Position numbers and translations under genes: made by a program
Part shown: positions 17,242-61,863 of the stretch, piece by piece
Layout: every line of letters starts with the position of its first letter
How positions within the stretch are numbered: position 1 is the first letter of the stretch
Source: Nitrospira sp.
GTDB taxonomy: Bacteria > Nitrospirota > Nitrospiria > Nitrospirales > Nitrospiraceae
Assembly: GCA_016873495.1 (NCBI GenBank)
Contig: VGXC01000016.1
Span: 1-64,000 of the forward strand
Length of the DNA: 64,000 nucleotides
Direction: 5' to 3'
Notes under the pieces: model-generated
Databases searched by the model: none
What the model was told of the DNA's origin: nothing
What the model saw: the letters and a program-made list of their open reading frames with translations, nothing else

Positions 17242-17393
17242 GGATCCTGGTCCTGCGGTAGGTATCGTGCCGGCGGTGCTCTCATGAGTTGGCCAATTCA
17301 GTATGCCAATCCGAACTCTGCATTGCAAGGTGGCTGGTTTCTTGACGGTGCGATGGGGGGCCTCTATGATTGAGGCAGAGAGGGGATAGCGAA

Positions 17394-20072: not shown

Positions 20073-21327
20073 TCTGATCAGGGGGGCAAAGGCTCCGCCG
20101 GGGACCGCAGAGGAGGCAAAGCCCGGAGCCGACGCTGCGCAAGAGGAGAAAGCCGCGTCTCCGGCCGTCGCTCCCCCTGCGCCCGCCGTATTGCCGGTCC
20201 AGTTGCGCGCCCTTAAAGAGCAGATTCAACGTCAAGCCGACCCTTCGGTGGCAGTGCCTGCGCCGCCGACGCCGCAAGCGGCTCCGCCGGCCGGACCGCG
20301 GACGATGGCGCTCGAAGCGGCAATTCTCACGGCGCCGCCGCCCGCGCCGATGACTTCGGCTACGCCGCTCACGCAGCCCAGAACTGCGGTGCTGGAGTTG
20401 CCGCCGGATCTGACCGGTTTTACCACGCAAGCGGCCGTCTCCGCGGCGTCACAGGTGGATTGGTACGGCAAGGCGGAAGCGGCTCTTGCGGGGATCGCGA
20501 CGGCTGTCAGTAAGCAGCGCGCCTTGTCGCTCGGCGATCTGCCGCAAATCGCCGAAGGCTTGGCCGAGTCCCTCGCGGTCGATGACCGCCTCCTGGTCCG
20601 CGCGATCTCTCACCAAAGCGGTCCTTCGCTGATCGGCAACATGGTGCATGTCGCCATCTTCGGCGTGAAGATCGGCATGGGACTGGGCTATCGTCCGGAT
20701 GAACTGGCCAAGTTGGCCTTCGCGGCGCTCGTGCACGACATCGGGATGTTTCAGTTGCCCGAAGCGATGTTGGAAGAGACGGGCCGGTGGACGGAGGAAC
20801 AGGTCGAATTGCTGCGCCGACATCCTCACACCGGATCCGATCTGCTCAAGCAGGCCGCCAAAGCCCATCCCTGGCTCCCCGAGATCGTGCTGCAGGAACA
20901 CGAGCGAATCAACGGCTCTGGCTACCCGAAGGGGTTGCAAGGGCCGCAGATCCACGAGTTCGCACTGGTTATCGGACTGGCGGATGTGCTCGATGCCATG
21001 CTGCGATCGCGGGCGACCAGGAAGGCCCTGCTCCCGCATGAGGCGGTCCGTCTGCTCTTGTCGCGCGAGAAGTCCGGCTTCCCCACGCGTCTCTTTAAAA
21101 GCCTTCTCCAGCAGTTTTCGCTGTTTCCGGTGGGCACCTGGGTGAAGTTGACATCGGGCGAGATCGGCGAGGTCTTCCGGTCGAACCCGCGCTTCCCCTT
21201 GCGTCCCGCGGTGAAGATCATCATCGACCAGAGCGGGCAGCGGCTGCGCGAGCCCAAGGATCTGGACTTGAGCGGATCTCCCTTGGTCCATGTCGCGGAG
21301 ATCGTGGATGCGTTGCAGCTCGTCTGA
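20056..21327 (+). CDS. HD-GYP-like domain protein with Pro/Ala-rich N-terminus
   Basis: 423 residues from GTG 20056 (GGGGGAG upstream). Residues 10-135 are a low-complexity Ala/Pro linker; about 140-330 form an HD-type helical domain. Seen: H227-D228 in LVHDIGMFQLP, H256 in RRHPHTG, EHERINGSGYPKGL (281-294) and D310. This follows the HD-GYP layout of c-di-GMP phosphodiesterases, but the usual HHE..DG reads E-H-E..NG and the Lys after HDIG is Met, so activity could be altered. A small C-terminal domain follows (LFPVGTWVKLTSGEIGEV). Overlap with the ATPase gene suggests a regulatory pair for the locus. Confidence 0.75.
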   Translation: MVRLTDLIRGAKAPPGTAEEAKPGADAAQEEKAASPAVAPPAPAVLPVQLRALKEQIQRQADPSVAVPAPPTPQAAPPAGPRTMALEAAILTAPPPAPMTSATPLTQPRTAVLELPPDLTGFTTQAAVSAASQVDWYGKAEAALAGIATAVSKQRALSLGDLPQIAEGLAESLAVDDRLLVRAISHQSGPSLIGNMVHVAIFGVKIGMGLGYRPDELAKLAFAALVHDIGMFQLPEAMLEETGRWTEEQVELLRRHPHTGSDLLKQAAKAHPWLPEIVLQEHERINGSGYPKGLQGPQIHEFALVIGLADVLDAMLRSRATRKALLPHEAVRLLLSREKSGFPTRLFKSLLQQFSLFPVGTWVKLTSGEIGEVFRSNPRFPLRPAVKIIIDQSGQRLREPKDLDLSGSPLVHVAEIVDALQLV

Positions 21328-21394
21328 CGGCATACTCCCGTCACGAAGGAGCGACCACCGACTGGTTCCCATGGCTGGTGGAACGCTGGATGCG

Positions 21395-22525
21395 ATGAGA
21401 TCGAGCAGCCTAATCGCGACGACGGCAATGCTTTTTTTGGTCCTGGGGGCGCTCGCCGGCTGCTCGAGTTGGAGCGGCGTCATCCAGCCCACCGTTCCCA
21501 AGAACGCCTCGTCCGTCTATGTCATTCCCGACACCGAGGAACCGGTCGACGCAGCCGGATTAACCGAGCCTGCTCCGAGGCAGGACCCGGAGGATATGCT
21601 GGAGCCGGGGGACGCGCTGGACATCGTCGTTCGCCGGGGGGCCGGGGAAGAGAAGTATCAGGCTGTGGTTCGGGCCAACGGCAATATTACGGTGTCGTTC
21701 CAGGATATCAACGTCAAGGGGCTGACCGAGGGAGAGGCGGAGGAAAGGATCAATCAAGCACTGTCCCGGGTCATCAGAAACCCCAGCACACAATTGCGGA
21801 TCATGCAAAAGGTGTCGGGGCGTCCCAAGAGCATCTACCTGATCGGGGAAGTGAGGCAGCCGGGAAAATTTCCGCTGACGCGGCGGATGACGCTCCTGCA
21901 GGCGATCGCCGTGGGGAACGGTTATACCGATGTGGCGATGACGGAGCGGGTCGTGCTGATTTCCAAGCGGGAAGGGCGCAAGCCGTTGATTCGAGTCGTG
22001 AACATGAAGGCGGCCTTGATCTCGGCGGACCAAGCTCCGGATCTGTCTTTGAACGAGAACGATATCATTTTCGTTCCGCGGAGCGAAGCCGGAGACTTTT
22101 ACAATTACTATATCAAAGTGGCGTTGCCCATCGTCACCCAGGTGGTCAACGCGCTCAACTCGGTGTTCATCGGTAAAACTCTGGATCAGGCTTTCAGGGT
22201 TCCTGTGGACCAGCCGGTCACGCCGGCCATTCCGGTCTGTTGGGTCGCCGGCGTGCTCTACGGCGAGCAGGCCTGGCAGACCAAGATGCTCCGCTGGTAC
22301 ATCGTCGGGCCGTTCTCCGACCATTGGGCCGGCCGGGCCTTTGCGGACCTCTATCGCGCCTATGGAAAGCAAACGGCCCGGGTCTTGGAACGGCACCCCC
22401 GCTTGCAGGCGCTGGTCCGCCCTCTGTTCGACCGGCTCTTGATTCAGGCCGTTCGGGCGGCAGGGGACCGCCCGGCGCAGGCGTTCCCCGTCGCTCGATC
22501 GGCAAACATCCGGGACCACCGTTAG
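21395..22525 (+). CDS. wza: Wza-type polysaccharide export lipoprotein with CFI-box-like C-terminal domain
   Basis: 376 residues. The lipoprotein signal ends at LGALAGC (Cys23). A Poly_export domain lies at about 65-145 (MLEPGDALDIVVRR, VRANGNITVS) and an SLBB domain at about 146-230 (YLIGEVRQPGKFPL, NDIIFVPRSEAGDF), as in outer-membrane export proteins. Beyond residue 275 there is an extra domain, PVCWVAGVLYG ... LRWYIVGPFSDHWAGRAF ... YRAYG ... ERHPRLQALVRPL. It resembles the CFI-box-CTERM module (CFIATAAYG...LR.FRD..L....GR.F...YY). The ATG at 21395 is chosen because it gives a proper lipoprotein signal. Confidence 0.85.
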   Translation: MRSSSLIATTAMLFLVLGALAGCSSWSGVIQPTVPKNASSVYVIPDTEEPVDAAGLTEPAPRQDPEDMLEPGDALDIVVRRGAGEEKYQAVVRANGNITVSFQDINVKGLTEGEAEERINQALSRVIRNPSTQLRIMQKVSGRPKSIYLIGEVRQPGKFPLTRRMTLLQAIAVGNGYTDVAMTERVVLISKREGRKPLIRVVNMKAALISADQAPDLSLNENDIIFVPRSEAGDFYNYYIKVALPIVTQVVNALNSVFIGKTLDQAFRVPVDQPVTPAIPVCWVAGVLYGEQAWQTKMLRWYIVGPFSDHWAGRAFADLYRAYGKQTARVLERHPRLQALVRPLFDRLLIQAVRAAGDRPAQAFPVARSANIRDHR

Positions 22526-22534
22526 CGGAACCCT

Positions 22535-24679
22535 ATGGCGCAATACGACCTCAATCTTGTCGACTTCTGGCTGATCGTCCGCCGCCGGAAGCTCATCATC
22601 CTCTTCACGGTGGTCCTCGTCGGAATCTCGACCGCAACCCTGCCCTATCTCGTCGGCCCGGCTCCTGTGTTCAAAGCCTCGGCTCGGGTCAAATATGAAC
22701 GGTCCACGACCGCGTCCGGCCTGTTGCAGGAATCTATCGGCGCGGTCGGGGAGGGGAGCGATATCGCGACGCAAGCCGAGGTGATCAAGAGCTTCAACGT
22801 GATCGAGCGGGTCGCTAAGGAAATGAATCTAATCGACAAGACCCTGGAGTCCAAAGACGTCCGCGGGAATCATGAACTTCTGGGCATAATTTAGGACATC
22901 CAAGGGCATATCGAAGCCTCGCAGGAGGGGAGCACCAACATCATCAAGATCACGGCGACGGCGGGCGATCCCAGGACCGCCGAACGGTACGCGACCTTGT
23001 CGGCCGACGCCTATCGCGAGGAGAACATTTACAACCGGAACCGTCAGGTGATCGAGGCGCGGCGTTTCGTCGAGGGGCAGTTGAAGAACCTGGCGGCCAG
23101 TTTGCACGAATCCGAGCAGGCGCTTCGGGAGTTCAAGGAGCAGGAAGGGCAGGTGTTCGTCACCGAGGAAGCCAAGCAGGCCCTCGAACAGTACAACAAG
23201 CTGGAAGGGGAGCAGGAACGGTTGTCGCGGGTTCGAAAGGAGGTAACGGCCCAACTCCAATCGCTGAAGGAGAGCAAGACCGTCGTGCAGGAGACGCAGA
23301 GCCGCGTCTACTCCGACGAGGTGGAGGCGCTGATCAGCAAGCTGAACCAGCGTATGTCGGACCTCACCCAGGAGCGGGATCTGCTGTTGATCAACTATAC
23401 GTCCGAGCATGCCCTCGTGCGCGAGCTGGACCGCCGGATCGTGAACGTCAAAGGCGAGATGATCCGGGAGTTGGAAGCCAAGCTCAGGACCTTCGATGAA
23501 CGGGAGCGGGCGCTTCGGGAGTCCATCGTGCGATACAAGGAGCGATACCTCAGTCTGCCCCAAGCGGCAATCCAATTGGCGCGGCTCGAGCGGGACGTCA
23601 TGGTGAACAGCAACCTCTATGCGGCGCTCAAATCCAAGCACCAGGAGTTCATGATCAAGGGCGCCGAGCAGATCGAAGAGGTGACGATCATCGAGCCGGC
23701 GCCGCTGCCGACCCGCCCGACGAATGCGCCGAACCTGCCCTTGAACGCATTTCTGGGCATACTGATGGGCGGCATGGTCGGACTGGTGGCGGCCTTTCTG
23801 AAGGAATCCTTCGACACCTCCATCGGCACGATCGAAGAGGTCGAGGCGTACCTGAAAGTGCCGGTGCTGGGCGTCATTCCGAGGATGAACCGCAAGGAGA
23901 TCGAACGAGAAATCCAGATGGGCTTCCAGGAAAAACTGGACCGCGAAACGCTGGACCTCTATTGCCACCTGGTGGCCCTGTTCGATCCGCAATCCCCGCT
24001 GGCGGAGGGGTACCGTTCGCTGCGCACGAATATTCAATTCGCGGGCGGGATGCAGGGGAATCGGGTGTTGGCCTTCGTCAGTGCCGGCGCGCAGGAAGGC
24101 AAATCCACCAGCGCGGTCAATCTGGCGATCGCATTGGCTCAGGACGGTAAACGGGTGTTGCTCGTCGATGCCGACTTGCGGAAGCCCACCATCCATGAAC
24201 GGCTGGGCTTGGAGCAGATACCGGGTCTGAGCGAGGTCATCCTCGGCGCGGTGTCCTACCTGGAGGCGATCCGCACCGTGACGGACCTGATGTTGGGCAA
24301 GTTGGGGGTCGAGCAGGTGATCAATGCCCCCGGCATCGACAACCTCAACATCCTTCCCTCCGGAAAACGCCCGGACAATCCGGCCGAGTTTATGAATTCC
24401 CCGAAGCTGACCGAACTTATCGACACCGTGCGGAAGGAGTACGATATCGTGATTTTCGACTGCCCGCCCATCCTCCCGGTCACGGACGGCGTGACGCTGG
24501 GCTCCAAGGTGGACGGGGTCGTGATGGTCTACCAGGTCGGCAAGGTGGGACGCAACGCGCTCAAACGCGCCAAGTCGCTTCTGGAAAACGCCCACGCCTC
24601 GTTGATCGGGATCGTCTTAAGCAACGTCAGCGCCGAGCTCACGCCCGATTACGAAATGTACCGGTATAGCTACAAATAG
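22535..24679 (+). pseudogene. wzc: Wzc-type chain-length determinant/tyrosine autokinase, interrupted by in-frame TAG
   Basis: The frame runs 715 codons, the normal size for Wzc, but codon 120 (22892-22894) is TAG, inside the N-terminal Wzz domain (...NHELLGII-stop-DIQGHIEAS...). The sequence reads as the family on both sides in the same frame, so one substitution (for example from CAG) would restore it. Features: an N-terminal TM helix (KLIILFTVVLVGIS), a long coiled coil, a second TM (LGILMGGMVGLVAAFL), a BY-kinase domain with Walker A GAQEGKSTSAVNLA, A' VLLVDADLRKP and B VIFDCPPI, and a C-terminal Tyr cluster (YEMYRYSYK) for autophosphorylation. Readthrough, a restart at TTG 22997, real decay or a base-call error are all possible. 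Confidence 0.8.
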
Positions 24680-24706: not shown

Positions 24707-26182
24707 ATGGACAGCGCGCGTATCGGACCGATAGAACTGGTGGTACTCGTCGTGCTGGCGGTCGGGATGGGCGTGGCTGTGACCAGCGGCCAGTCGACGA
24801 TGATGGTGGCCGCCGTGGCCGGCACCGCCTTCATGATCGCGGCGTTCCTCTCCACCCGCCTCTGCCTCTACTTCCTCGTCTATTCCATGCTGCTCGGCCC
24901 CGAACTCGAGTTCGGCGGGGAATTCACCGGCGGAGCGACGGGCAGAAAAGGCCAAGCGAGCCTGGGGCACGGGATGACCCTTCGTTTGGACGATTTTCTG
25001 CTGGTCATCGTCGGATTGATCTGGCTCATCAAGGCCGCCATCCATAAGCAAGAGGCGCCTCTCAAGCATACGCCGCTGAACGGCCCGATCATGCTCTATG
25101 TGGCAGCCTGCGCATTCGCCACGCTGATGGGAGTCTTTTCCGGCCGCGTGAAGCCCCTGCCGGGCTTCTTCTTCAACTTGAAGTACTTCGAGTATTTCTT
25201 CCTGTACTTCATGGTGCTCAACGTGGTGGAGACCAAAGACCAGGTCAAGGGGTTGATCACCGCCAGCCTGTGGACCTGCTTGTTCGTCTCGCTGTTTGCG
25301 CTTGCCCAGATTCCAAGCGGGGACCGGGTGTCCGCGCCCTTCGAAGGGAAAGAGGGCGAGCCGAACACCCTCGGCGGCTACCTGGTCTTCATGTTGTCGA
25401 TCGTCGCCGGCTTGTTGATGACGCCCGGTGCGGTGCAAAAAAAATGGCCTTTATTGGCGCTGGTTTTCTTCGGCGGATTTTCGGTGTTGGCCACGTTATC
25501 GCGCTCGTCCTATCTGGCGGCCGCCGTCGTCCTGGTGGCGATCGTCGGCAAGATGAGCTACAAGCGGCCCTTGCTGTTCTCCATCATGTTCATGGTGCTG
25601 GCCGCGTCGCCCTGGTGGCTGCCGAAACCGGTGACGGAGCGCGTCTTCTTCACGTTCACCCAGGCCGCGGAAAAGGGCCAGGAAAAGGTGGCCGGCATTA
25701 GGGTGGACACGTCCACCTCCGAACGGATCCGCAACTGGGAGCAGGCCATGGACTCGTTTAAGAAGTCTCCCATCTATGGAATGGGCGTGACCGGGGCGCG
25801 ATATTTTATCGACGGCATGTATCCTCGGACCCTCAGCGAAACGGGCCTGTTCGGACTGGCCTCGTTTCTCTGGCTCTGCTGGATGGTCTTCCGTGTCGGG
25901 TGGACCTCCTACCATGAAGTCCGCGACCCCTATTTCGAAGGCATCGCGCTGGGATTCCTGTTGGGGCATCTCGGCATTTTGACGCACGCCATCGGCGGCA
26001 ACAGTTTCATCATCGTCCGCATCATGGAGCCCTACTGGCTGTTCGCGGCCCTGGTCATGAAAAGCTATATGTTGAGTCAAAGCGCTCCGGAAGAGGGCGT
26101 CGAAGCAAGAGGGACGCCGTCCGTGGAGTTGTCGGAGGCTAAACCCGGCCTTGCATGGAGTCCCGGGATTCGCCGCGCCTAA
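24707..26182 (+). CDS. O-antigen ligase / polymerase family membrane protein (Wzy/WaaL-like)
   Basis: 491 residues with about ten to twelve hydrophobic helices and a large hydrophilic loop towards the C-terminus containing RNWEQAMDSFKKSPIYGMGV. This is the characteristic Wzy_C / O-antigen ligase region, with the downstream ETGLFGLASFLWL. It either polymerises lipid-linked repeat units or ligates the polymer to an acceptor; sequence alone does not tell which. Being directly after wzc and the only such gene in the locus, polymerase is the likelier role. ATG at 24707 is 27 bp after the wzc stop. Confidence 0.85.
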   Translation: MDSARIGPIELVVLVVLAVGMGVAVTSGQSTMMVAAVAGTAFMIAAFLSTRLCLYFLVYSMLLGPELEFGGEFTGGATGRKGQASLGHGMTLRLDDFLLVIVGLIWLIKAAIHKQEAPLKHTPLNGPIMLYVAACAFATLMGVFSGRVKPLPGFFFNLKYFEYFFLYFMVLNVVETKDQVKGLITASLWTCLFVSLFALAQIPSGDRVSAPFEGKEGEPNTLGGYLVFMLSIVAGLLMTPGAVQKKWPLLALVFFGGFSVLATLSRSSYLAAAVVLVAIVGKMSYKRPLLFSIMFMVLAASPWWLPKPVTERVFFTFTQAAEKGQEKVAGIRVDTSTSERIRNWEQAMDSFKKSPIYGMGVTGARYFIDGMYPRTLSETGLFGLASFLWLCWMVFRVGWTSYHEVRDPYFEGIALGFLLGHLGILTHAIGGNSFIIVRIMEPYWLFAALVMKSYMLSQSAPEEGVEARGTPSVELSEAKPGLAWSPGIRRA

Positions 26183-29996: not shown

Positions 29997-30762
29997 TGCG
30001 CCGCGATCGGCGCCGCCCGGAGGGTACGATGAACAGCGTTACAACCCGGCGATGCGCCGCGTGTGGCCCTGGCCAGCCCTGCTCCTGGAAAGTGTTGCGG
30101 GGTGGATGCAGGCGTTGCCGGGACGGGTCTGGCTGGACGGAGCCTGCGGCGAAGGGCACTTGGGGCGATTGATCGGCACGAGCAAATGCCTGGTGGGTCT
30201 GGAAATCGACCCGCAGCGGCTGACACTCGCTCAAGGCCGTCCATACCGCCTGTTGTTGCAAGGCTCGTTGGCCGCCATTCCTCTCGCGGATGCCAGCTTG
30301 CACGGTATTGCCAGCGTAGAGACGTTGGAGCACGTGTCCCATCTCGACCGAGTCCTCAAGGAATGTGCGCGGTGTCTATGTGGCGGGGGTTATATGATAG
30401 TCACGGTGCCATCCGTCACACTACGCAGCTGGTGGCAGATGCGCCAGACCGGGCACCCCGTATATTGCAGCGAGCGGGAGCATCTGCGGGAACTGTCCTC
30501 CGTTCCGATCCGGGGGTTCCCGCACATGTTCGAGACCTGGAAGGAGTTCGAACGCCGATTCGAGGGCCACGGGTTCGCCATTGTACGGACCGGGGGGCTG
30601 GGGTTTCTGTTTCCCATGTGGACGGGACGCCTGGCATGGGTCGAGCGCGGCATGAATCTGCTGTATCGGGAGTCGTGCAATAGCTGGGTGGGCCGGCTGC
30701 CCATCGTGCGACGCTTCCCCTACTATCGGATATATCTGCTTCGCCGGAGGGAGGCTCCATGA
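29986..30762 (+). CDS. SAM-dependent methyltransferase
   Basis: 258 residues with a shortened motif I (VWLDGACGEGHLG), LVGLEIDPQRL after strand 2, and GIASVETLEHVSHLDRVLKEC typical of type-11 methyltransferases. Overlaps the preceding GT39 gene by 11 bp (ribosome site GAAGG inside it) and the following methyltransferase gene by 4 bp. Probably a sugar O-methyltransferase of the locus. Confidence 0.82.
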   Translation: METDAPRSAPPGGYDEQRYNPAMRRVWPWPALLLESVAGWMQALPGRVWLDGACGEGHLGRLIGTSKCLVGLEIDPQRLTLAQGRPYRLLLQGSLAAIPLADASLHGIASVETLEHVSHLDRVLKECARCLCGGGYMIVTVPSVTLRSWWQMRQTGHPVYCSEREHLRELSSVPIRGFPHMFETWKEFERRFEGHGFAIVRTGGLGFLFPMWTGRLAWVERGMNLLYRESCNSWVGRLPIVRRFPYYRIYLLRRREAP

Positions 30763-31418
30763 TGCCGGCCTTCCCGCGTCGGGTATTGACCTGCCTGCTC
30801 TATGCCTATTGGTGGCTACACGGGCCCGGTTTGGGCTTCGTGCTTCGGCGTCGCCGCTCAACGATCCACCTCACCCGCTTTTATATGTACCGACGATTGC
30901 GAGATGTGCTGGGGCCGCTGCCGTCAGGCGGGCGTGTGCTCTCGATCAGCGGGCGCGGCCCCATCGTGGAGATGCTCGCGCGCCAGGGGGTGGAAGTGGT
31001 GCAAACGGCCTATCCGGGGGTCGATATCCATGCCTTGCCCTATCCGGACCGGAGCTTTTCCGCCGTCATCTCGGATCAGGTGCTGGAGCACGTACAGGAT
31101 CCCGCGAAGGCGGTCCGCGAAACGCTGCGCGTCCTGGCCCCGGGTGGACTCCTGGTGCACACCAGCTGTTTCCTGAATCCCGTGCATCGGCATCCGGTCG
31201 ATCTCTGGCGGTTCACCCCGGAGGCGCTCCGTGACCTTGTGGGCCAGGCGGAGATCGTCGATTGTGGGGGATGGGGCAATCGGTCGGCCCTGTTGCTGAT
31301 GTTCATGGGGGTCGGGCAACACTTGATCCCCGACCATCCGGACCATCCTTTGCATCGGATTGCGACGTACAACGATCCGGCCTATCCGATCGTCACCTGG
31401 GTGGTGGCGCGAGCGTGA
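30759..31418 (+). CDS. SAM-dependent methyltransferase (type 11)
   Basis: 219 residues. Motif I is atypical (VLSISGRGPIVEML instead of a clear GxGxG), followed by VDIHALPYPDRSFSAVISDQVLEHV, the strongest family signature, and LRVLAPGGLLVHTS. The altered SAM loop could mean weakened cofactor binding or a variant family. The ATG overlaps the previous stop, with GGAGGGAGG upstream. Its own stop overlaps the GTG of the flippase. Confidence 0.75.
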   Translation: MMPAFPRRVLTCLLYAYWWLHGPGLGFVLRRRRSTIHLTRFYMYRRLRDVLGPLPSGGRVLSISGRGPIVEMLARQGVEVVQTAYPGVDIHALPYPDRSFSAVISDQVLEHVQDPAKAVRETLRVLAPGGLLVHTSCFLNPVHRHPVDLWRFTPEALRDLVGQAEIVDCGGWGNRSALLLMFMGVGQHLIPDHPDHPLHRIATYNDPAYPIVTWVVARA

Positions 31419-32848
31419 ACCCTACCGCGTCATCTCGTGCCGCCGTCATTGCCGGCGGTCTCTGGGTCGGATTGGGATTCGTCGGGCAGCAGGGCATCTC
31501 CTTTCTCCGCACGCTCGTTCTGGCTCGGTTACTGACGCCGGAAGACTTCGGACTGGTCGGCATCGTGATGCTGACGTTGTTTGCCGGATTCATGCTGACC
31601 GAATGGGGGATCGAGAGCGCGCTGATTCAACGGTCCGAGCTCCGCCCGGAGGCCGTAGACACGGCCGGGACGCTGATGTTCCTGCGCGGCTGTGGACTGT
31701 TTTTGCTGATTCAGGTCGCGGCGCCATGGATCGCGGCGGGCTTCGATCGTCCCGACGCAACGAGTTTTCTACGGGTCGGGGCCGTCAGCTTTTTGCTCGT
31801 CACCGTGCCGGCGGTGCCGGCAACCTTGCTCTTGCGCGACCTGCGCTTCCGAGATCGGACCATGCTGGACACCGGACGCGATGTCTGCGGCTTGGTCTGC
31901 GCGATCGTTCTGGCTTGGTGGCTGGGCAATGCCTGGGCCTTATTGCTCGGGTTGCTGTTCGGGCAATTGGCAGCGGCGATAGCTGTCTGGTTTCTTCGGC
32001 CGATACGCCCAAGGTGGCGGCTGGACCGAGCGGCGCTGCGAGAATATGGGCAGTTCGGCCGGCACTTGTACGCCAGCGGCCTGATGGCCTACGTGGTCAC
32101 CAAGGGCGACGACATAGTGGTGGGAAAGGTGCGGGGCGTGAGGGAGTTGGGCCAATACCAGGTTGTCTTCGGGATTGCGGAAATGCTCACCCGCGGATTG
32201 AGCGAAACGGTGAACAAAGTGGTGTTCCCCGCCTATTCACGCCTCACGGGAGAAGGACGCAGCCTGGCCACGGCCTTCGATGAGGTCTGGCGTCTCCACT
32301 TGTTGCTCCTGCTGCCGATTGCATCGGTGTTGATTCTGTTTCCGGTCGATTCCGTGGCGCTGCTGCTCGGCTCGCAATGGCTGACGGCGGCGGTGCCTTT
32401 TGCGGTCCTCGTGTTGGCAGAAACCCTGCGGGCCTTGGCGGCCGCTTGCGGAGTCCTCATCCTGGCCGGGGGACGGACCGTCTATCTGTCGCGGATTAAA
32501 CTGGTCGAAGTGGTCTGTTTCGGTCTGTTGATTGTGCCGATGACGACCCGGTGGGGGATGAGCGGCGCGGCCGGTTGTCTGGTGGCGGTCTATACTCTCA
32601 GCTTGATCGGACACGTCGTCGGAGCCCGGCAGGTGGAACGGGCGGTGGGCGCCGTCTTGGCCCGCTCCGGAGAGCCGGTCCTCGTGGCCGCAGTCCTGTC
32701 CGGTGTCGCCTGGGGCCTGGTGGTCGGCATGCAGATGCCGGCGGCTGTCGGGGCGGTTGCGTGGCTCCTGCTCTGGAGCGGGTATGGATGGTATCGACAG
32801 GGGGGATTGCTTATAATGCTGTGGGATTCTATTCGCGCGAGGCCGTAG
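31415..32848 (+). CDS. Wzx-type oligosaccharide flippase
   Basis: 477 residues, about twelve to fourteen transmembrane helices, of the polysaccharide synthase/MOP flippase type (GLWVGLGFVGQQGISFLRTLVLARLLTPEDFGLV split as WxGLGFVGQQG and RLLTPEDFGLV). It moves lipid-linked repeat units across the inner membrane. GTG at 31415 overlaps the preceding stop (GTGA). It is the only flippase in the locus. Confidence 0.88.
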   Translation: MNPTASSRAAVIAGGLWVGLGFVGQQGISFLRTLVLARLLTPEDFGLVGIVMLTLFAGFMLTEWGIESALIQRSELRPEAVDTAGTLMFLRGCGLFLLIQVAAPWIAAGFDRPDATSFLRVGAVSFLLVTVPAVPATLLLRDLRFRDRTMLDTGRDVCGLVCAIVLAWWLGNAWALLLGLLFGQLAAAIAVWFLRPIRPRWRLDRAALREYGQFGRHLYASGLMAYVVTKGDDIVVGKVRGVRELGQYQVVFGIAEMLTRGLSETVNKVVFPAYSRLTGEGRSLATAFDEVWRLHLLLLLPIASVLILFPVDSVALLLGSQWLTAAVPFAVLVLAETLRALAAACGVLILAGGRTVYLSRIKLVEVVCFGLLIVPMTTRWGMSGAAGCLVAVYTLSLIGHVVGARQVERAVGAVLARSGEPVLVAAVLSGVAWGLVVGMQMPAAVGAVAWLLLWSGYGWYRQGGLLIMLWDSIRARP

Positions 32849-34114: not shown

Positions 34115-36001
34115 ATGTGCGGGATTGCCGGCATCGTGGCTCCGGGTCGTCCGGCGGCCTTCCTGGCGGAGCGGGTCGAGCGCATGGGGCTGGCAATGAC
34201 CCATCGCGGGCCCGACGGCCAGGGCCGGTATGCGGCCGACGGCATCGCCCTGGAACACAGGCGGCTGGCGATCATCGACCTCTCGGAGGCGGGCCGGCAG
34301 CCCATGACGAATGAGGCCTGTGCCGAGCGCGGTCGTAGCAAGGGAACTCTGCGCCTGGTGGTCAACGGGGAAATCTACAACTATCGCCGGCTCCGCGACG
34401 AACTGATCGCCCGCGGCCATGCCTTTCGCAGCACGTCGGACTCGGAGGTGGTCCTCCACCTCTACGAAGAGTATGGCGACGACTGTCTGTCGCGGCTCGA
34501 CGGGATGTTTGCGCTGGCCCTGTGGGACGAGCCTGCGAGACGGCTGCTGCTGGCGCGGGACCGGTTCGGCATCAAGCCCTTGTATGTCGCTCAACGGGGG
34601 GAGACCCTCTGTTTCGCCTCCGAGCTGACCGCGCTGGTGCAGAGCGGCCTTGTGGCAGCCGTGGTGGCGCCGGAGGCCCTCTATGCCTATCTGGCCTTTT
34701 CCTATGTGCCTGCCCCCCAGACCATCCTGAAGGGCATCGACAAACTGTTACCGGCCGAGTCGGTTGTGTGGGAGGGGGGCAAACTGGAACGGCGAATCTA
34801 TTGGGAGCCCCGACCGACAGCCGTTCTCGATTCGCGCAGGGACGCATTGGCCGAGTTGGAGCATCGGCTGGAGTCCTCGGTCCGGGATCATCTGGTGGCC
34901 GATGTGCCAGTCGCCGCCTTTCTGTCCGGCGGAGTGGATTCCTCCACGATCGTGGCGCTGGCGCAACGGCGGCATCGGATGCAGACATTCTGTGTGTCGT
35001 TTCCAGGGACCGACGTGGATGAAGCGCCGTTTGCGCGGCTGGTGGCCGACCATGTGGGCGCCCGGCATCATGAGGTGGCGCTCGGTCTTGATCCTGCGGC
35101 GTTGTTGGTCCAGGCGGTCGCCCGTATGGACGAGCCCTTTGCCGACTCCTCGGCGTTGCCGACGTTCGCGGTCTGCCGGGCGGCCCGGGAACTGGCCACC
35201 GTGGTCCTCTCGGGAGACGGAGGCGATGAGGTGTTCGGCGGTTATACAGGCCGTTACCGGGTGGCGGCGATGCAAGCAGCGCTGCCGGGACGAAGCCACC
35301 TGGCTCGCTGGCTTCGCAGCGTGCCGCCCTGGCGTTCCGGACGGCGCAGCTCCTTGCCGGCGATGCTGGACCTCGCGGCCCTCCCGGATGCCGAGCGGTA
35401 TCTGTGCGAACGTCAAATTACCACCCCCGAGGAGCGAGCGTGCCTCTTCGGTCAGACCGCTAGTGTCCCCTACGAACGGGCGTTGCGGAACGCGCCGGCC
35501 CTGGCGATCCGCCAGGCGACGGGATGGCATCCGGTGCACCGGGCCCTGTGGATGGACCTGGCCACGTCGCTGGCGGACGATATGCTCACCAAAGTGGATC
35601 GTATGAGCATGGCCCACGGGCTGGAAGTGCGGGTCCCGTTCCTGGACCATCGCTTGGTGGAGTTCGCCCTGTCGCTGCCGCCCTCCTGGCTAGTGAGCCC
35701 TTGGCCCGTCGAGGGGAAACGGTTGCTGCGGAGTTTCGCGGCGCCGCTCTTGCCGCCCGGTCTTCTGAATCGTCCCAAACAAGGGTTTGTCGTGCCGTTG
35801 AATCGCTGGCTGCAGGACGCCTTGCTGAAGATGTTCGATGACGGGTGCTTGGGCGCCGACTCCGAAACGGCCCGATGGATGGACCGTCGGGCCGTTGCCG
35901 CGCTGCGGCAGGCTCCTTTTGCAGCGGCGCCGCGGCAGGAGTTGTATGCGCTGCTGGTCCTGGAACTCTGGCTCCGACGCGTGAGGCCCGGTCATGCGTA
36001 G
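34115..36001 (+). CDS. asnB: Asparagine-synthase-type amidotransferase, copy 1
   Basis: 628 residues. N-terminal class II glutaminase with Cys2 as nucleophile (MCGIAGIV), HRGPDGQG, RRLAIIDL, NGEIYNY and SDSEVVL all present. The C-terminal synthase has the PP-loop FLSGGVDSSTI, DEPFADSSALPT, LSGDGGDEVFGGY and GLEVRVPFLDH. All catalytic residues appear intact. In polysaccharide loci such enzymes (for example Francisella WbtH, Bordetella WbmE) amidate uronic acids to uronamides; that role, rather than free asparagine synthesis, is inferred from context. Two paralogues lie at 39266 and 46550. Confidence 0.9.
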   Translation: MCGIAGIVAPGRPAAFLAERVERMGLAMTHRGPDGQGRYAADGIALEHRRLAIIDLSEAGRQPMTNEACAERGRSKGTLRLVVNGEIYNYRRLRDELIARGHAFRSTSDSEVVLHLYEEYGDDCLSRLDGMFALALWDEPARRLLLARDRFGIKPLYVAQRGETLCFASELTALVQSGLVAAVVAPEALYAYLAFSYVPAPQTILKGIDKLLPAESVVWEGGKLERRIYWEPRPTAVLDSRRDALAELEHRLESSVRDHLVADVPVAAFLSGGVDSSTIVALAQRRHRMQTFCVSFPGTDVDEAPFARLVADHVGARHHEVALGLDPAALLVQAVARMDEPFADSSALPTFAVCRAARELATVVLSGDGGDEVFGGYTGRYRVAAMQAALPGRSHLARWLRSVPPWRSGRRSSLPAMLDLAALPDAERYLCERQITTPEERACLFGQTASVPYERALRNAPALAIRQATGWHPVHRALWMDLATSLADDMLTKVDRMSMAHGLEVRVPFLDHRLVEFALSLPPSWLVSPWPVEGKRLLRSFAAPLLPPGLLNRPKQGFVVPLNRWLQDALLKMFDDGCLGADSETARWMDRRAVAALRQAPFAAAPRQELYALLVLELWLRRVRPGHA

Positions 36002-39265: not shown

Positions 39266-41155
39266 ATGTGCGGCTTGGGCGGATATGTGGGGCCGGGATC
39301 CGAGCCGGTGCTCGAGGCCATGACCAAACTGCTGGCTCATCGCGGTCCGGATGCCGCCGGCGTCTGGGCAGGCGACGGCGTCGGGTTGGCCCATACGCGC
39401 TTGTCCATCCTCGATTTGTCCACGGCCGGCAACCAGCCGATGGGGGATGCCGCTACCGGCCTGTGGGTCGTGTTCAACGGGGAGATCTATAACTTCGGCG
39501 AGTTGCGCGTCGAACTGGAGGCGGCCGGCTGTCGTTTCCGGAGTCGGACCGATACCGAGGTTTTGTTGCACGGCTACGGCCGATGGGGCCAGGACCTCCT
39601 GGGGCGGTTGCGCGGCATGTTTGCCTTTGCGATCTGGGATGCCCGTCGGCGAACCTTGTTGATCGCCCGCGACCGGCTGGGGATCAAGCCGCTGTTCTAT
39701 GCGCCGCTGGCCGGCGGGTTGGTCTTTGCCTCGGAGATGAAGGCCTTGTTCGCGCACCCGGGCGTCCGGGCCGAACTGTCGCCGGACGGCGTGGATGCGT
39801 ATCTGACCTTGGGGTACGTGCCGGCTCCGCGCACGATTTTCAAGGGACTGACGGCGCTGTCGCCGGGACATTGGCTGCAATGGCAGGAGGGGAGGATTCG
39901 GTTGGGGCGGTACTGGGCGCCCGACTACCGCCAGCCGATTCTGGAGGGGAGCGAAGACGTCCTGGCGGACGAATTGGACGCCCGCCTGAACGACGCCGTG
40001 CGCGCGCACCTGGTGGCGGATGTGCCGATCGGCGCGTTTCTGTCCGGCGGGGTGGATTCCAGCCTGGTGGCGGCGATCGCCCAGCGCGCCAGCCCCGAGC
40101 CGCTGGAGACCTTCACCATCGGGTTTGAAGGCGGAGGGGACGAACGGGGCTATGCGCGACGCGTGGCCGAGCATATCGGCTCGCGCCACCATGAACGGCT
40201 GGCCCAACCGGACATGGAAGAGGTCCTGCCGAGGCTGGTCTGGCATTTGGATCAGCCGTTGTTCGACAACTCCGCGCTGCCGACCTATCTGGTTTCGCGC
40301 ATGGCTCGGGAATCGGGCAAGGTGGTCCTGTCCGGCGACGGGGGCGACGAACCGTTTTTCGGCTACGATTGGACGCGATGGGCCGTGGCGCTTCCATCCC
40401 TGCCGCTGCCCCGGTTCGCGTCCGGCTGGAGCTGGGCCTATCGAACCGGATCGATTGGGAACATGGAGCGGCTCTATTATGACGTCAGTCACTCGGCTGC
40501 GGACCGGTATGTGAGGCGGATGACAACGTCCCAATCGTTCCGATCTTGGTTGTGCCGGCCGGAGTTTCTGGGCCGGCTGGAGCGAAATGTGGAGGAGGAA
40601 CTCCGGAGCGAGCTTGGACGAGCTCCGGTGCGCGACCGTCGGGATGCCTTCCCCTATGCCGACCTCACCCGGTACCTGCCCGATGACGTGCTCTTCAAGG
40701 TGGACCGGATGAGCATGGCCTGTGGCTTGGAGGTACGCGTTCCGCTGCTCGACCATCGGCTGCTGGAGTGGATACTGTGCCTGCCCGTCCCCCTCCGGTT
40801 TCACCGAGGCTACGGCAAGTATCTGCTGCGAAAGGTGGCGGCGCGGTATCTGCCGGCCTCCATCCTGGCGCCGAGGAAGCAGGGGTTTACGGTGCCGATC
40901 GGGCGATGGTTGCAGGGGGGGCTGGGGGACCTCGCGCGGGGCTTGCTGGCTTCCAAGCGGTTCGCCGCGCGGGGCGTGATCCGACAGGATCGCGCCCTGG
41001 CGCTGATGGACATGCACCGCACCGGTCGATATGAACTGGGGCACCGTCTCTGGAGCCTGGTCGTGCTCGAGGTCTGGTGCCGGGTCTGGCTAGACGGGCA
41101 GAGCCATGGACAAAGCTTGCGCGCGATGTTGGCGGAGGGAGGTGACGCGGCATGA
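39266..41155 (+). CDS. asnB: Asparagine-synthase-type amidotransferase, copy 2
   Basis: 629 residues, same architecture as copy 1. Glutaminase: MCGLGGYVGPG (Cys2), HRGPDAAG, TRLSILDL, NGEIYNF, TDTEVLLHG. Synthase: FLSGGVDSSLV, DQPLFDNSALPTYLVS, LSGDGGDEPFFGYDW and GLEVRVPLLDH. The F-x-F-G-Y-D-W loop replaces the usual ELFGGY, so the acceptor pocket may differ from the two paralogues. Lies between a GT4 and a GT2 gene. Probable sugar-uronate amidation by inference. Confidence 0.9.
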   Translation: MCGLGGYVGPGSEPVLEAMTKLLAHRGPDAAGVWAGDGVGLAHTRLSILDLSTAGNQPMGDAATGLWVVFNGEIYNFGELRVELEAAGCRFRSRTDTEVLLHGYGRWGQDLLGRLRGMFAFAIWDARRRTLLIARDRLGIKPLFYAPLAGGLVFASEMKALFAHPGVRAELSPDGVDAYLTLGYVPAPRTIFKGLTALSPGHWLQWQEGRIRLGRYWAPDYRQPILEGSEDVLADELDARLNDAVRAHLVADVPIGAFLSGGVDSSLVAAIAQRASPEPLETFTIGFEGGGDERGYARRVAEHIGSRHHERLAQPDMEEVLPRLVWHLDQPLFDNSALPTYLVSRMARESGKVVLSGDGGDEPFFGYDWTRWAVALPSLPLPRFASGWSWAYRTGSIGNMERLYYDVSHSAADRYVRRMTTSQSFRSWLCRPEFLGRLERNVEEELRSELGRAPVRDRRDAFPYADLTRYLPDDVLFKVDRMSMACGLEVRVPLLDHRLLEWILCLPVPLRFHRGYGKYLLRKVAARYLPASILAPRKQGFTVPIGRWLQGGLGDLARGLLASKRFAARGVIRQDRALALMDMHRTGRYELGHRLWSLVVLEVWCRVWLDGQSHGQSLRAMLAEGGDAA

Positions 41156-46510: not shown

Positions 46511-46549
46511 GGGTGGGTGCGGGCAAGTCATCCGGGAGCTGAGACGCTG

Positions 46550-48475
46550 ATGTGCGGGATTTGCGGGTTGGTCGGTCAGGTTGGGCAGGAAGACGAGGCG
46601 GTCCTGACGCGCATGATGCGCCGCCTGGAGCACCGGGGGCCGGATGAAAACGGGAAGCACCGGGAGCCAGGCATCCGACTGGGGATGCAACGGCTGCGCG
46701 TGATCGACCCGCAAGGCGGACATCAGCCGATCTCCAACGAAACCGGGACGGTCTGGGTGGTGATGAACGGCGAAATCTACAACTATCGGGAACTGCGACG
46801 GGAGTTGATCGACAAGGGCCATCGGTTTACGACCAACTGCGATACCGAGGTGCTTGTCCACCTCTACGAGCAGGAGGGAGAGGCCGGCGTACAACGGCTC
46901 CGCGGCATGTTTGCCTATGCGATCTGGGATCGTGAGCGACGCCGCTTGCTCCTGGTTCGCGACCGCTTGGGCATCAAGCCCCTCTACTACGCGTGGGTGC
47001 CGTCGTCGTCCGGGGACGGGCCGGCGCTGGCCTTTGCCTCCGAGCTGCCGTCGCTCCTGGAAGCCATCCCGTCTCGTTCCGTCGATCCCTCGGCGGTCGC
47101 CCAGTATCTGAGTTTGCTCTATGTGCCTGGGCCTGGAACGATGTACGAGGGAATCCGGCAGCTCCAGCCTGGCGCGTGGCTGAAGGTGGAAGGCGGCAAG
47201 GTTGAAACGGGGTGTTACTATCATCCAAGCGCAGCTCTGCCGACGTGTGCCGCGATATCGCATGGAAGAGAATCCGTAGCCGAGACGGAAGAACGGTTTC
47301 TGGCCTTGCTCAAGGACACGGTCCAGGCGCACCTCGTGAGCGACGTTCCTTTAGGCCTCTTCCTGTCCGGCGGGCTTGATTCGGGCGCGATTTTGGCCAT
47401 GATGCGGTTGGTGACCGACGGGCCGATCAAAAGCTTTTCGATCGGCTATGGATCGCCGGTGGATCGGTCCTACAACGAACTCGACGCGGCCCGTCTCATG
47501 GCGGACCGCTTCGGCGCGGAGCATACGGAAGAGCGGTTGACTCCGGATGTCGTGACCCTGTTGCCGAAGATCGTGACGGCCATGGGGGAGCCCTTCGGGG
47601 ATTCCTCGGCCATCCCGACCTACCTGGTCTCGGCCGTCGCGCGCCGCTCCGTTACGGTAGCTCTCTCGGGAATCGGGGGAGACGAGCTGTTCGGCGGCTA
47701 TCCCCGCTATCTGGGGATGCGAGCTGCGGCCCGCTATGCGTTGGTGCCGGCCGTCGTGCGCGGGTGGGTAGGAACATGGGTGGCCCCGCTGTTGCGCGAG
47801 GGGGTGGGCGGCCGGGATCAGCTTGGCCGGCTCAAGCGGTTCTTGCGGGACGGTCGATTGGAACTGTCGGAACAGTACCGGCAGTGGATCACGTTTCTAC
47901 CCTCCGAATGGAGGGGCTCGGCCTTGACCGAGGATTGTCTCGCAGCAGGCGAGCCGGATGCGACCGCCCGATCCTATCAGGCCCTGTTCGAACGCTGGCC
48001 GGTCCCCGATCCGTCGGACCGGGCCATGGGACTGGACCTCCAGACCTATCTGCCCGACGACCTGCTTAGGATGGGAGATCGGCTCAGCATGGCCCACTCG
48101 CTCGAGTTGCGCGTGCCCTTCTGCGATCATGAGTTGCTGGCCTTTGCCTGCAGCCTGCCGCCGCCGGTCCGGTTCGACGGGTGGACCTTAAAAGGATTCA
48201 TGCGGAAATCGCTGCGCCGTCTCTTGCCTCCCTCAATCGTCAGCGCGCCCAAACGGGGTTTTCAGGTGCCGCTCGCGCGGTGGCTGCGCGAAGATCTCCG
48301 CGAGATGGTCGGGGACCTGCTCAGCGACGAAGCCGTGCGTCGGCGGGGTTATGTGAAACCCGAGTATGTGCGGTGGCTGCTTCAGGCACATAGAACGGGC
48401 CGGCGCAACTTGGCCGATCAGATTTTCGCCTTGCTGGTGTTGGAGCTCTGGCACCAACAGATAGCGGCGCGGTGA
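46550..48475 (+). CDS. asnB: Asparagine-synthase-type amidotransferase, copy 3
   Basis: 641 residues. Glutaminase: MCGICGLVGQ (Cys2), HRGPDENG, QRLRVIDPQGG, NGEIYNY, CDTEVLVH. Synthase: FLSGGLDSGAI, GEPFGDSSAIPTYLVS, LSGIGGDELFGGY (the usual SGDGGDE reads SGIGGDE) and SLELRVPFCDH. More distant from copies 1 and 2 than those are from each other, judging by these motifs. Starts 40 bp after the frameshifted GT2 gene; stop overlaps the next GT4 start region. Likely amidates a different substrate. Confidence 0.9.
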   Translation: MCGICGLVGQVGQEDEAVLTRMMRRLEHRGPDENGKHREPGIRLGMQRLRVIDPQGGHQPISNETGTVWVVMNGEIYNYRELRRELIDKGHRFTTNCDTEVLVHLYEQEGEAGVQRLRGMFAYAIWDRERRRLLLVRDRLGIKPLYYAWVPSSSGDGPALAFASELPSLLEAIPSRSVDPSAVAQYLSLLYVPGPGTMYEGIRQLQPGAWLKVEGGKVETGCYYHPSAALPTCAAISHGRESVAETEERFLALLKDTVQAHLVSDVPLGLFLSGGLDSGAILAMMRLVTDGPIKSFSIGYGSPVDRSYNELDAARLMADRFGAEHTEERLTPDVVTLLPKIVTAMGEPFGDSSAIPTYLVSAVARRSVTVALSGIGGDELFGGYPRYLGMRAAARYALVPAVVRGWVGTWVAPLLREGVGGRDQLGRLKRFLRDGRLELSEQYRQWITFLPSEWRGSALTEDCLAAGEPDATARSYQALFERWPVPDPSDRAMGLDLQTYLPDDLLRMGDRLSMAHSLELRVPFCDHELLAFACSLPPPVRFDGWTLKGFMRKSLRRLLPPSIVSAPKRGFQVPLARWLREDLREMVGDLLSDEAVRRRGYVKPEYVRWLLQAHRTGRRNLADQIFALLVLELWHQQIAAR

Positions 48476-61365: not shown

Positions 61366-61863
61366 ATGGTGCAGTCGCTGCTGATCAAGCTGGCCATGCT
61401 GGCTGCAGCGGTCGCTCTGGTGTTCTGGATCGGCTGGCCGATGCCCGATGAGCCGGAGCTGGAGCCGGAGGGGGAGGAAAAGGCGCAGGGTCCCTCGCCG
61501 CCGCCTCAGGTTCAGCTCCCTCCGCGTAGCGACATAGGTACAGGTACGATTCAACCGGGAGGGGAGTCGCCGAGATTCGGCTGGCAGGCAAAGAACTCCT
61601 CCAGGCTGGACTTGAACCGGGCAACGGCCGATGATCTTGAGCAATTGCCGGGGATTGGGCCGGTGCTGGCCCGTCGTATCGTGGAATGGCGGCGCGGGCA
61701 TGGAGCGTTCAGCAACGTGGATGACTTGAATCACGTCAAGGGCATCGGGGAGAAAAAATTGCGGCAGCTCAAGCCTTTGGTCATGGTGGGTCAGTCCAAG
61801 CCGCCAGTCCCATCCCGTTTTCGGCCTGCTGCTGCTCACGAGAAGGGTCCGGAGGCGCCATGA
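61366..61863 (+). CDS. ComEA-like helix-hairpin-helix DNA-binding protein
   Basis: 165 residues: N-terminal membrane anchor ([17 protein letters not shown], about 8-24), a Pro/Glu-rich linker, then a double helix-hairpin-helix domain at about 83-140 ([38 protein letters not shown]). This fits ComEA-type DNA-binding proteins of natural transformation, but the same fold occurs in other membrane-tethered HhH proteins. Stop overlaps the tyrS start (ATGA), and no other competence genes are visible here. Confidence 0.8.

Follow-up and report, generated by a model that had tools for sequence, protein, structure and literature searches.

Wzc is a tyrosine autokinase of polysaccharide export systems. 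PMC8285477 describes autophosphorylation of Wzc as essential for the polymerisation of exopolysaccharide (EPS), whereby cycling of the phosphorylation is needed. It also states that deletions of periplasmic helices in characterised Wzc proteins abolish the polysaccharide, and that in Staphylococcus aureus the region of Wzc residues 418-474 belongs to CapA. According to PMC3795738, firmicutes have a catalytic domain that is not joined to the Wzz-like membrane protein. In evolution experiments, Klebsiella clones without capsule had acquired early stop codons or frameshifts in wcaJ, wzc or rfaH (PMC9376106), and nonsense alleles of wzc are already known in print. The premature stop mentioned in PMC5359410 is located in an acetyltransferase. 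In one paper from a search on wzc nonsense mutations and phage resistance, wcaJ was hit and wzc merely appears in a list. A literature search on Nitrospira exopolysaccharide and wzc returned no paper with this subject in the title or at the start of the abstract. Here we describe a wzc gene of Nitrospira sp. which is interrupted by one in-frame amber codon. The gene is located in a stretch of 64,000 nt (contig C16 of the assembly), referred to as the window.

Layout of the interrupted wzc gene and its surroundings

The wzc frame covers positions 22535-24679 on the plus strand and comprises 714 codons. Its translation consists of 119 residues (MAQYDLNLVDFWLIVRRRK... up to codon 119), a TAG at codon 120 (22892-22894, plus strand), 594 further residues in the same frame and a terminal TAG at 24677-24679. 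The 5' part (22535-22894, plus strand) encodes the N-terminus, a first membrane helix at residues ~19-40, which is supported by hydropathy and by the structure model, and the Wzz domain. The latter matches Pfam PF02706 at residues 6-96 (E 2.2e-8), i.e. the whole model lies 5' of the stop. The 3' part (22895-24679, plus strand) carries the remaining periplasmic domain, GNVR (PF13807, E 5.8e-13), a second membrane helix at residues ~401-426 and the BY-kinase domain (AAA_31, E 1.5e-17). The NCBIfam model TIGR01007 (eps_fam, polysaccharide biosynthesis tyrosine autokinase) exceeds its cut-off (161.1 vs 108.05 bits). PRK11519 (Wzc) is matched with E 4.8e-54, under its own cut-off.

Within the kinase domain three intact stretches are found which we take to be the Walker A (AGAQEGKST, residues 517-525, 24083-24109), Walker A' (VLLVDADLRK, residues 541-550, 24155-24184) and Walker B motifs (IVIFDCPP, residues 638-645, 24446-24469), all on the plus strand. 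The protein ends with a Tyr-rich tail containing four Tyr (PDYEMYRYSYK, from residue 704, 24644-24676, plus strand). All parts of a Wzc of the PCP-2a BY-kinase type are thus present, namely Wzz with helix 1, GNVR with helix 2 and a kinase with Walker A/A'/B and Tyr tail. Merely the single uninterrupted polypeptide is missing in the assembled form, owing to the TAG at codon 120. An earlier note on this DNA had described a Wzc frame with one in-frame TAG and with intact Walker motifs and Tyr tail, and translation, Pfam and motif location agree with this description. Homologs align gap-free across the stop, and full-length, stop-free counterparts with 92% and 91% identity exist in two genomes of the same genus (G002 and G003, respectively). 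Hence, the two parts represent one interrupted gene and not a chance arrangement. Judged by its sequence the locus descends from a wzc gene, but its assembled form does not code for a full Wzc.

The structure of the protein was predicted using AlphaFold2 (17 sequences, mean pLDDT 76.8, pTM 0.44). Apart from both membrane helices the model contains a strand at residues 46-53, a helix at 113-125 and strands at 126-130 and 136-143. Residue 120 is located within the helix and ahead of the two latter periplasmic strands. Based on the model, the periplasmic alpha/beta fold looks as if it extended to residue ~143 and would be cut by the stop. Since the stop falls in a helix between strands, what appears to be a single folded unit would be divided and membrane helix 1 would be stripped from the remainder. 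The earlier note had stated that a split product restarting at TTG 22997 would separate part of the Wzz domain from the kinase. This does not hold for the Pfam Wzz model, which lies wholly ahead of the stop, but it does hold for the predicted periplasmic fold.

The genes around wzc are intact. Directly upstream a Wza-like outer-membrane polysaccharide export protein is encoded (21290-22525, plus strand; Poly_export PF02563 E 3e-10, SLBB_2 E 6e-8). It shows 59.6, 63.2 and 48.0% identity to its counterparts in G002, G003 and the outgroup G014 without any internal stop. The next gene downstream encodes a Wzy/O-antigen-ligase-like polymerase (24707-26182, plus strand; Wzy_C PF04932, E 4.6e-11). 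A Wzx-like flippase follows at 31262-32848 on the plus strand with an intact domain (Polysacc_synt_3 PF13440, E 6.9e-66), whereby the true start is probably downstream of 31262. Also encoded downstream of wzc are glycosyltransferases, asparagine-synthase-like proteins and a Glycos_transf_4 protein of the initiating-transferase type. Judged by this gene set, the region presumably represents an exopolysaccharide cluster of the Wzx/Wzy type.

Some features of the cluster were noted aside from wzc. The identity of the Wza-like protein to G002 and G003 (59.6/63.2%) is lower than that of the adjoining wzc (~91%), so that the export protein is apparently evolving or being exchanged fast. Asparagine-synthase-like proteins (GATase and Asn_synthase) are encoded three times in the one cluster (34115-36001, 39266-41155 and 46517-48475). 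The middle of the cluster (26393-46500) has few matches in an 80 kb stretch of G003 and many in the more distant genus of G014. Such a pattern would fit a serotype-like cassette that is exchanged while the ends of the cluster stay conserved.

The stop codon among relatives and in the assembly

Homologs were surveyed in 235 genomes of the order, with a strong homolog defined by E <= 1e-150. Strong Wzc homologs are found in 71 of them. Seventy lack an in-frame stop, the present gene being the sole exception. Considering the own genome together with 60 relatives (n=61), every genome has some match. The column of the stop is occupied by Tyr in all 18 aligned homologs (codons TAC or TAT); in this alignment one sequence (L066) is continuous with the query only to residue 601, its tail being translated out of frame, and another (L015) is cut by a contig end. 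A further alignment, comprising 17 full-length proteins, likewise shows no variation in this column, which is one of many such columns. The alignments therefore point to Tyr as the expected sense residue at codon 120 and not to Gln or Glu, as implied by the CAG or GAG codons which the earlier note had named. A 30-base pattern around the TAG gave 0 matches in viral_contigs.

The main rival of a genuine nonsense allele is a consensus error or a minority base from a strain mixture in a metagenome-type assembly, so that the gene would be intact in most cells. The genome (3.19 Mb, estimated completeness 99.97%) is divided into 89 contigs with an estimated contamination of 2.19%. Both figures favour this reading, as do the undecayed rest of wzc and the lack of a stop in the other 70 strong homologs. 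The window was compared on protein level to the syntenic stretches of G003 (37 places, 36,888 bp), G014 (32 places, 37,512 bp) and G002 (12 places, 12,237 bp). Five, six and one of the matches contain stops, respectively. Just one of these stops is both clean and internal, namely that at 22892, which is seen against all three genomes. The sequence is hence not generally error-rich, since no other clean interruption occurs in the stretches comparable to the sisters. Moreover, the divergence profile around codon 120 shows no local oddity. In view of these findings we regard an assembly or strain artefact as unlikely, but as an explanation that has to be taken seriously.

Other apparent stops and matches of this comparison were set aside. 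At 17284 (minus strand) a likely secretion-signal start follows only far downstream of the apparent stop, and the intervening residues resemble an antisense reading. Position 31232 is ahead of the flippase domain in a stretch also covered by the ORF 30759-31418. The apparent stops at 61722, 61360, 34067, 34100 and 42099 are each ahead of the start listed for the ORF in question, and that at 22523 terminates the upstream wza. Two rows were left out as not clean, a weak antisense match (31100-30726) and a short ORF (12026) with 35% identity before the stop vs 84% after it.

Lineage-private changes in wzc were counted by reference to G002, G003 and G014 (outgroup). In the part behind the stop, 12 nonsynonymous and 43 synonymous changes are private to the own lineage, compared to 21 and 116 in the two sisters summed (Fisher p 0.30). 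Ahead of the stop there are 5 nonsynonymous and 3 synonymous changes vs 11 and 23 in the sisters (p 0.22), counts that are too few to read. The changes after the stop are still mostly synonymous, indicating a stop that arose recently, has not become fixed or is unreal. A rough mixture estimate yields a neutral share of the lineage of 3-5%, with an upper value that varies with the transition bias (~11-15%). If the lineage were fully neutral, 4-7 additional stops would be expected, and none is observed. The sequence gives no sign of a long neutral evolution of wzc after the stop. A low nonsynonymous share behind the stop would be equally expected if the stop was unreal or the downstream product functional.

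The kinase half of wzc (codons 481-714, 23975-24676) is nearer to the sister G003 (L006) than the rest of the gene. Fourfold differences to G003 amount to 25/119 in this half and 79/198 in the remainder (p 0.0005, with a breakpoint picked after looking at the data). This suggests past recombination with the G003 lineage within the kinase half, by which the lineage substitution counts are apparently blurred.

Read-through of the amber codon and restart of translation as possible alternatives

The earlier note had offered three readings of the stop, namely an inactive locus, suppression of the amber codon, or a split product restarting at TTG 22997. By suppression or read-through of UAG full-length Wzc would be made at some level. 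Low-level misreading of UAG by near-cognate tRNAs occurs in bacteria generally. This general background is in favour of such a read-through, as is the apparent selection on the part behind the stop, which seems to have lasted until recent times. Against it, the machinery for suppression is not detectable. The genome has 44 matches to RF00005, 30 of which were read as loci and 14 taken by place, and 43 of the 44 were recognised as tRNAs by ARAGORN. None of these 43 has the CUA anticodon of the suppressor tRNA that had been proposed as a check; Ile(GAT), Ala(TGC) and Gln(TTG) are missing from the same set as well, so that the set is incomplete. The release factor RF1 (prfA) is present and intact (505.8 bits). 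PylS is not above its cut-off (21.1 bits vs 178.15), and 13 of 14 control genomes match it in the same way. TAG serves as a normal terminator here: it ends 13 of the 37 ORFs of the window listed by hand, including wza and wzc. The use of TAG as terminator of wzc itself is a direct argument against efficient suppression. Moreover, no relative has conserved the in-frame stop. Suppression is therefore poorly compatible with the data and we consider it very improbable.

The remaining tRNA match (L081, G000:C56:100-330) is a serine-like fragment with a TGA anticodon of which only the 5' part is present. It is probably a pseudo-tRNA or an integration scar.

A restart downstream of the stop, at TTG 22997 or later, would generate a separate kinase-containing product working together with the 119 aa fragment. 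Candidate codons are not lacking, as 32 in-frame ATG, GTG or TTG codons occur between 22895 and 24100. Some of them have a fair pairing with the anti-Shine-Dalgarno sequence, i.e. TTG 23387 (-12.0 kcal/mol, matched by just 1.1% of random positions), GTG 23786 (-9.5 kcal/mol) and GTG 23153 (-9.3 kcal/mol), the latter two being matched by 6%. However, TTG 22997 (22997-22999, plus strand, codon 155) only reaches -3.4 kcal/mol, a value which is reached or surpassed at 61% of 3000 random window positions. For comparison, the median over 26 listed gene starts is -6.9. The measure alone is weak, as the own start of wzc has just -3.5. A TTG at codon 155 is found in three of eight close homologs, the own gene counted. 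Among the first nine restart candidates, ATG 23354 (codon 274) coincides with a start codon in 8/8 homologs compared, but it lies inside the coding sequence and pairs with -1.8 only.

The architecture likewise argues against a restart. The products would be devoid of membrane helix 1, which would presumably take the second helix out of its usual out-to-in context. According to the model, the periplasmic fold would be cut between strand 46-53 and the strands at 126-143. Natural splits are located at residues ~455-477 and not at 120. This is exemplified by two related genomes (G051:C188 and G053:C162) in which adaptor and kinase matches are separate and in different frames, with breaks at ~454-477 and 458-465. 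The analogy to a known natural split drawn in the earlier note hence breaks down, because the natural break comes after membrane helix 2, as in these two genomes and for CapA of S. aureus. The proposed start at TTG 22997 fares no better: it has no Shine-Dalgarno sequence, is not conserved and gives a product without helix 1 that begins inside the periplasmic domain. Weak restarts at later codons, e.g. 23387, 23786 or 23153, are conceivable. A working split kinase is nevertheless hardly to be expected, and even restart and suppression taken jointly are improbable.

A probable recent nonsense allele and its relation to known systems

Observed directly are the TAG in the assembly, its uniqueness among the relatives, the absence of decay around it and the absence of detectable suppression machinery. 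These observations are probably best explained by a single recent nonsense substitution at an invariant periplasmic Tyr codon of a single-copy wzc in the assembled genotype. Of the three readings offered before, the inactive locus is thus the best supported one. Translation would end after 119 residues, and the product would have a single membrane helix and a periplasmic fold that is incomplete, but no kinase. The assembly yielded no further Wzc, the other three matches having <=23.3 bits and being confined to residues 506-659. The stop would therefore switch off the sole Wzc found in the genome, and we infer that the Wzc protein is absent. Polymerisation and export of long-chain polysaccharide would be lost or strongly reduced, while the remaining cluster is still intact. 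By analogy to the characterised systems, EPS should be lost or strongly reduced. Drift or selection for the loss of EPS may be the cause.

The TAG allele might also belong to a standing on/off polymorphism of the population, with some cells having a silenced Wzc and no long-chain EPS. It could be kept up e.g. by phage or grazing pressure and would be reversible, since the rest of the gene is undecayed. We consider such a polymorphism rather improbable.

If the codon is real, the nonsense allele shows an uncultured bacterium of the Nitrospirales type at the moment of losing its EPS, before further decay. Annotation pipelines would turn the locus into two fragments or a pseudogene, and the EPS capability predicted from the assembly would be overcalled. 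The explanation is ordinary and has no bearing on the genetic code or the architecture of BY-kinases.

In comparison to known systems, the gene resembles Wzc of E. coli and Klebsiella (PCP-2a, BY-kinase) in the layout of Wzz, GNVR and kinase, the two membrane helices, the Walker motifs and the Tyr tail. A Wzc chain from the PDB (9xgv_A) is matched over residues 314-714 (E 1.3e-43). In contrast to these proteins the present gene is interrupted at codon 120. Moreover, the identity in the periplasmic part is low, and in the phmmer alignment the Tyr column of the stop is opposite to a residue other than Tyr in the Wzc chain from the PDB. With split pairs such as CapA/CapB of S. aureus and those of G051 and G053 it would share the distribution of the same domains on two polypeptides, if a restart occurred. 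However, the break in these pairs follows helix 2, between this helix and the kinase in the CapA/CapB type, whereas here it is located at residue 120, inside the periplasmic domain after helix 1. The gene also resembles the wzc, wcaJ and rfaH alleles of non-capsulated Klebsiella, where likewise a lone early stop codon or frameshift affects a capsule gene that is intact elsewhere (PMC9376106). Those alleles, as described there, arose in laboratory evolution and have a known phenotype, whereas the Nitrospira allele comes from one environmental assembly and is known from its sequence.
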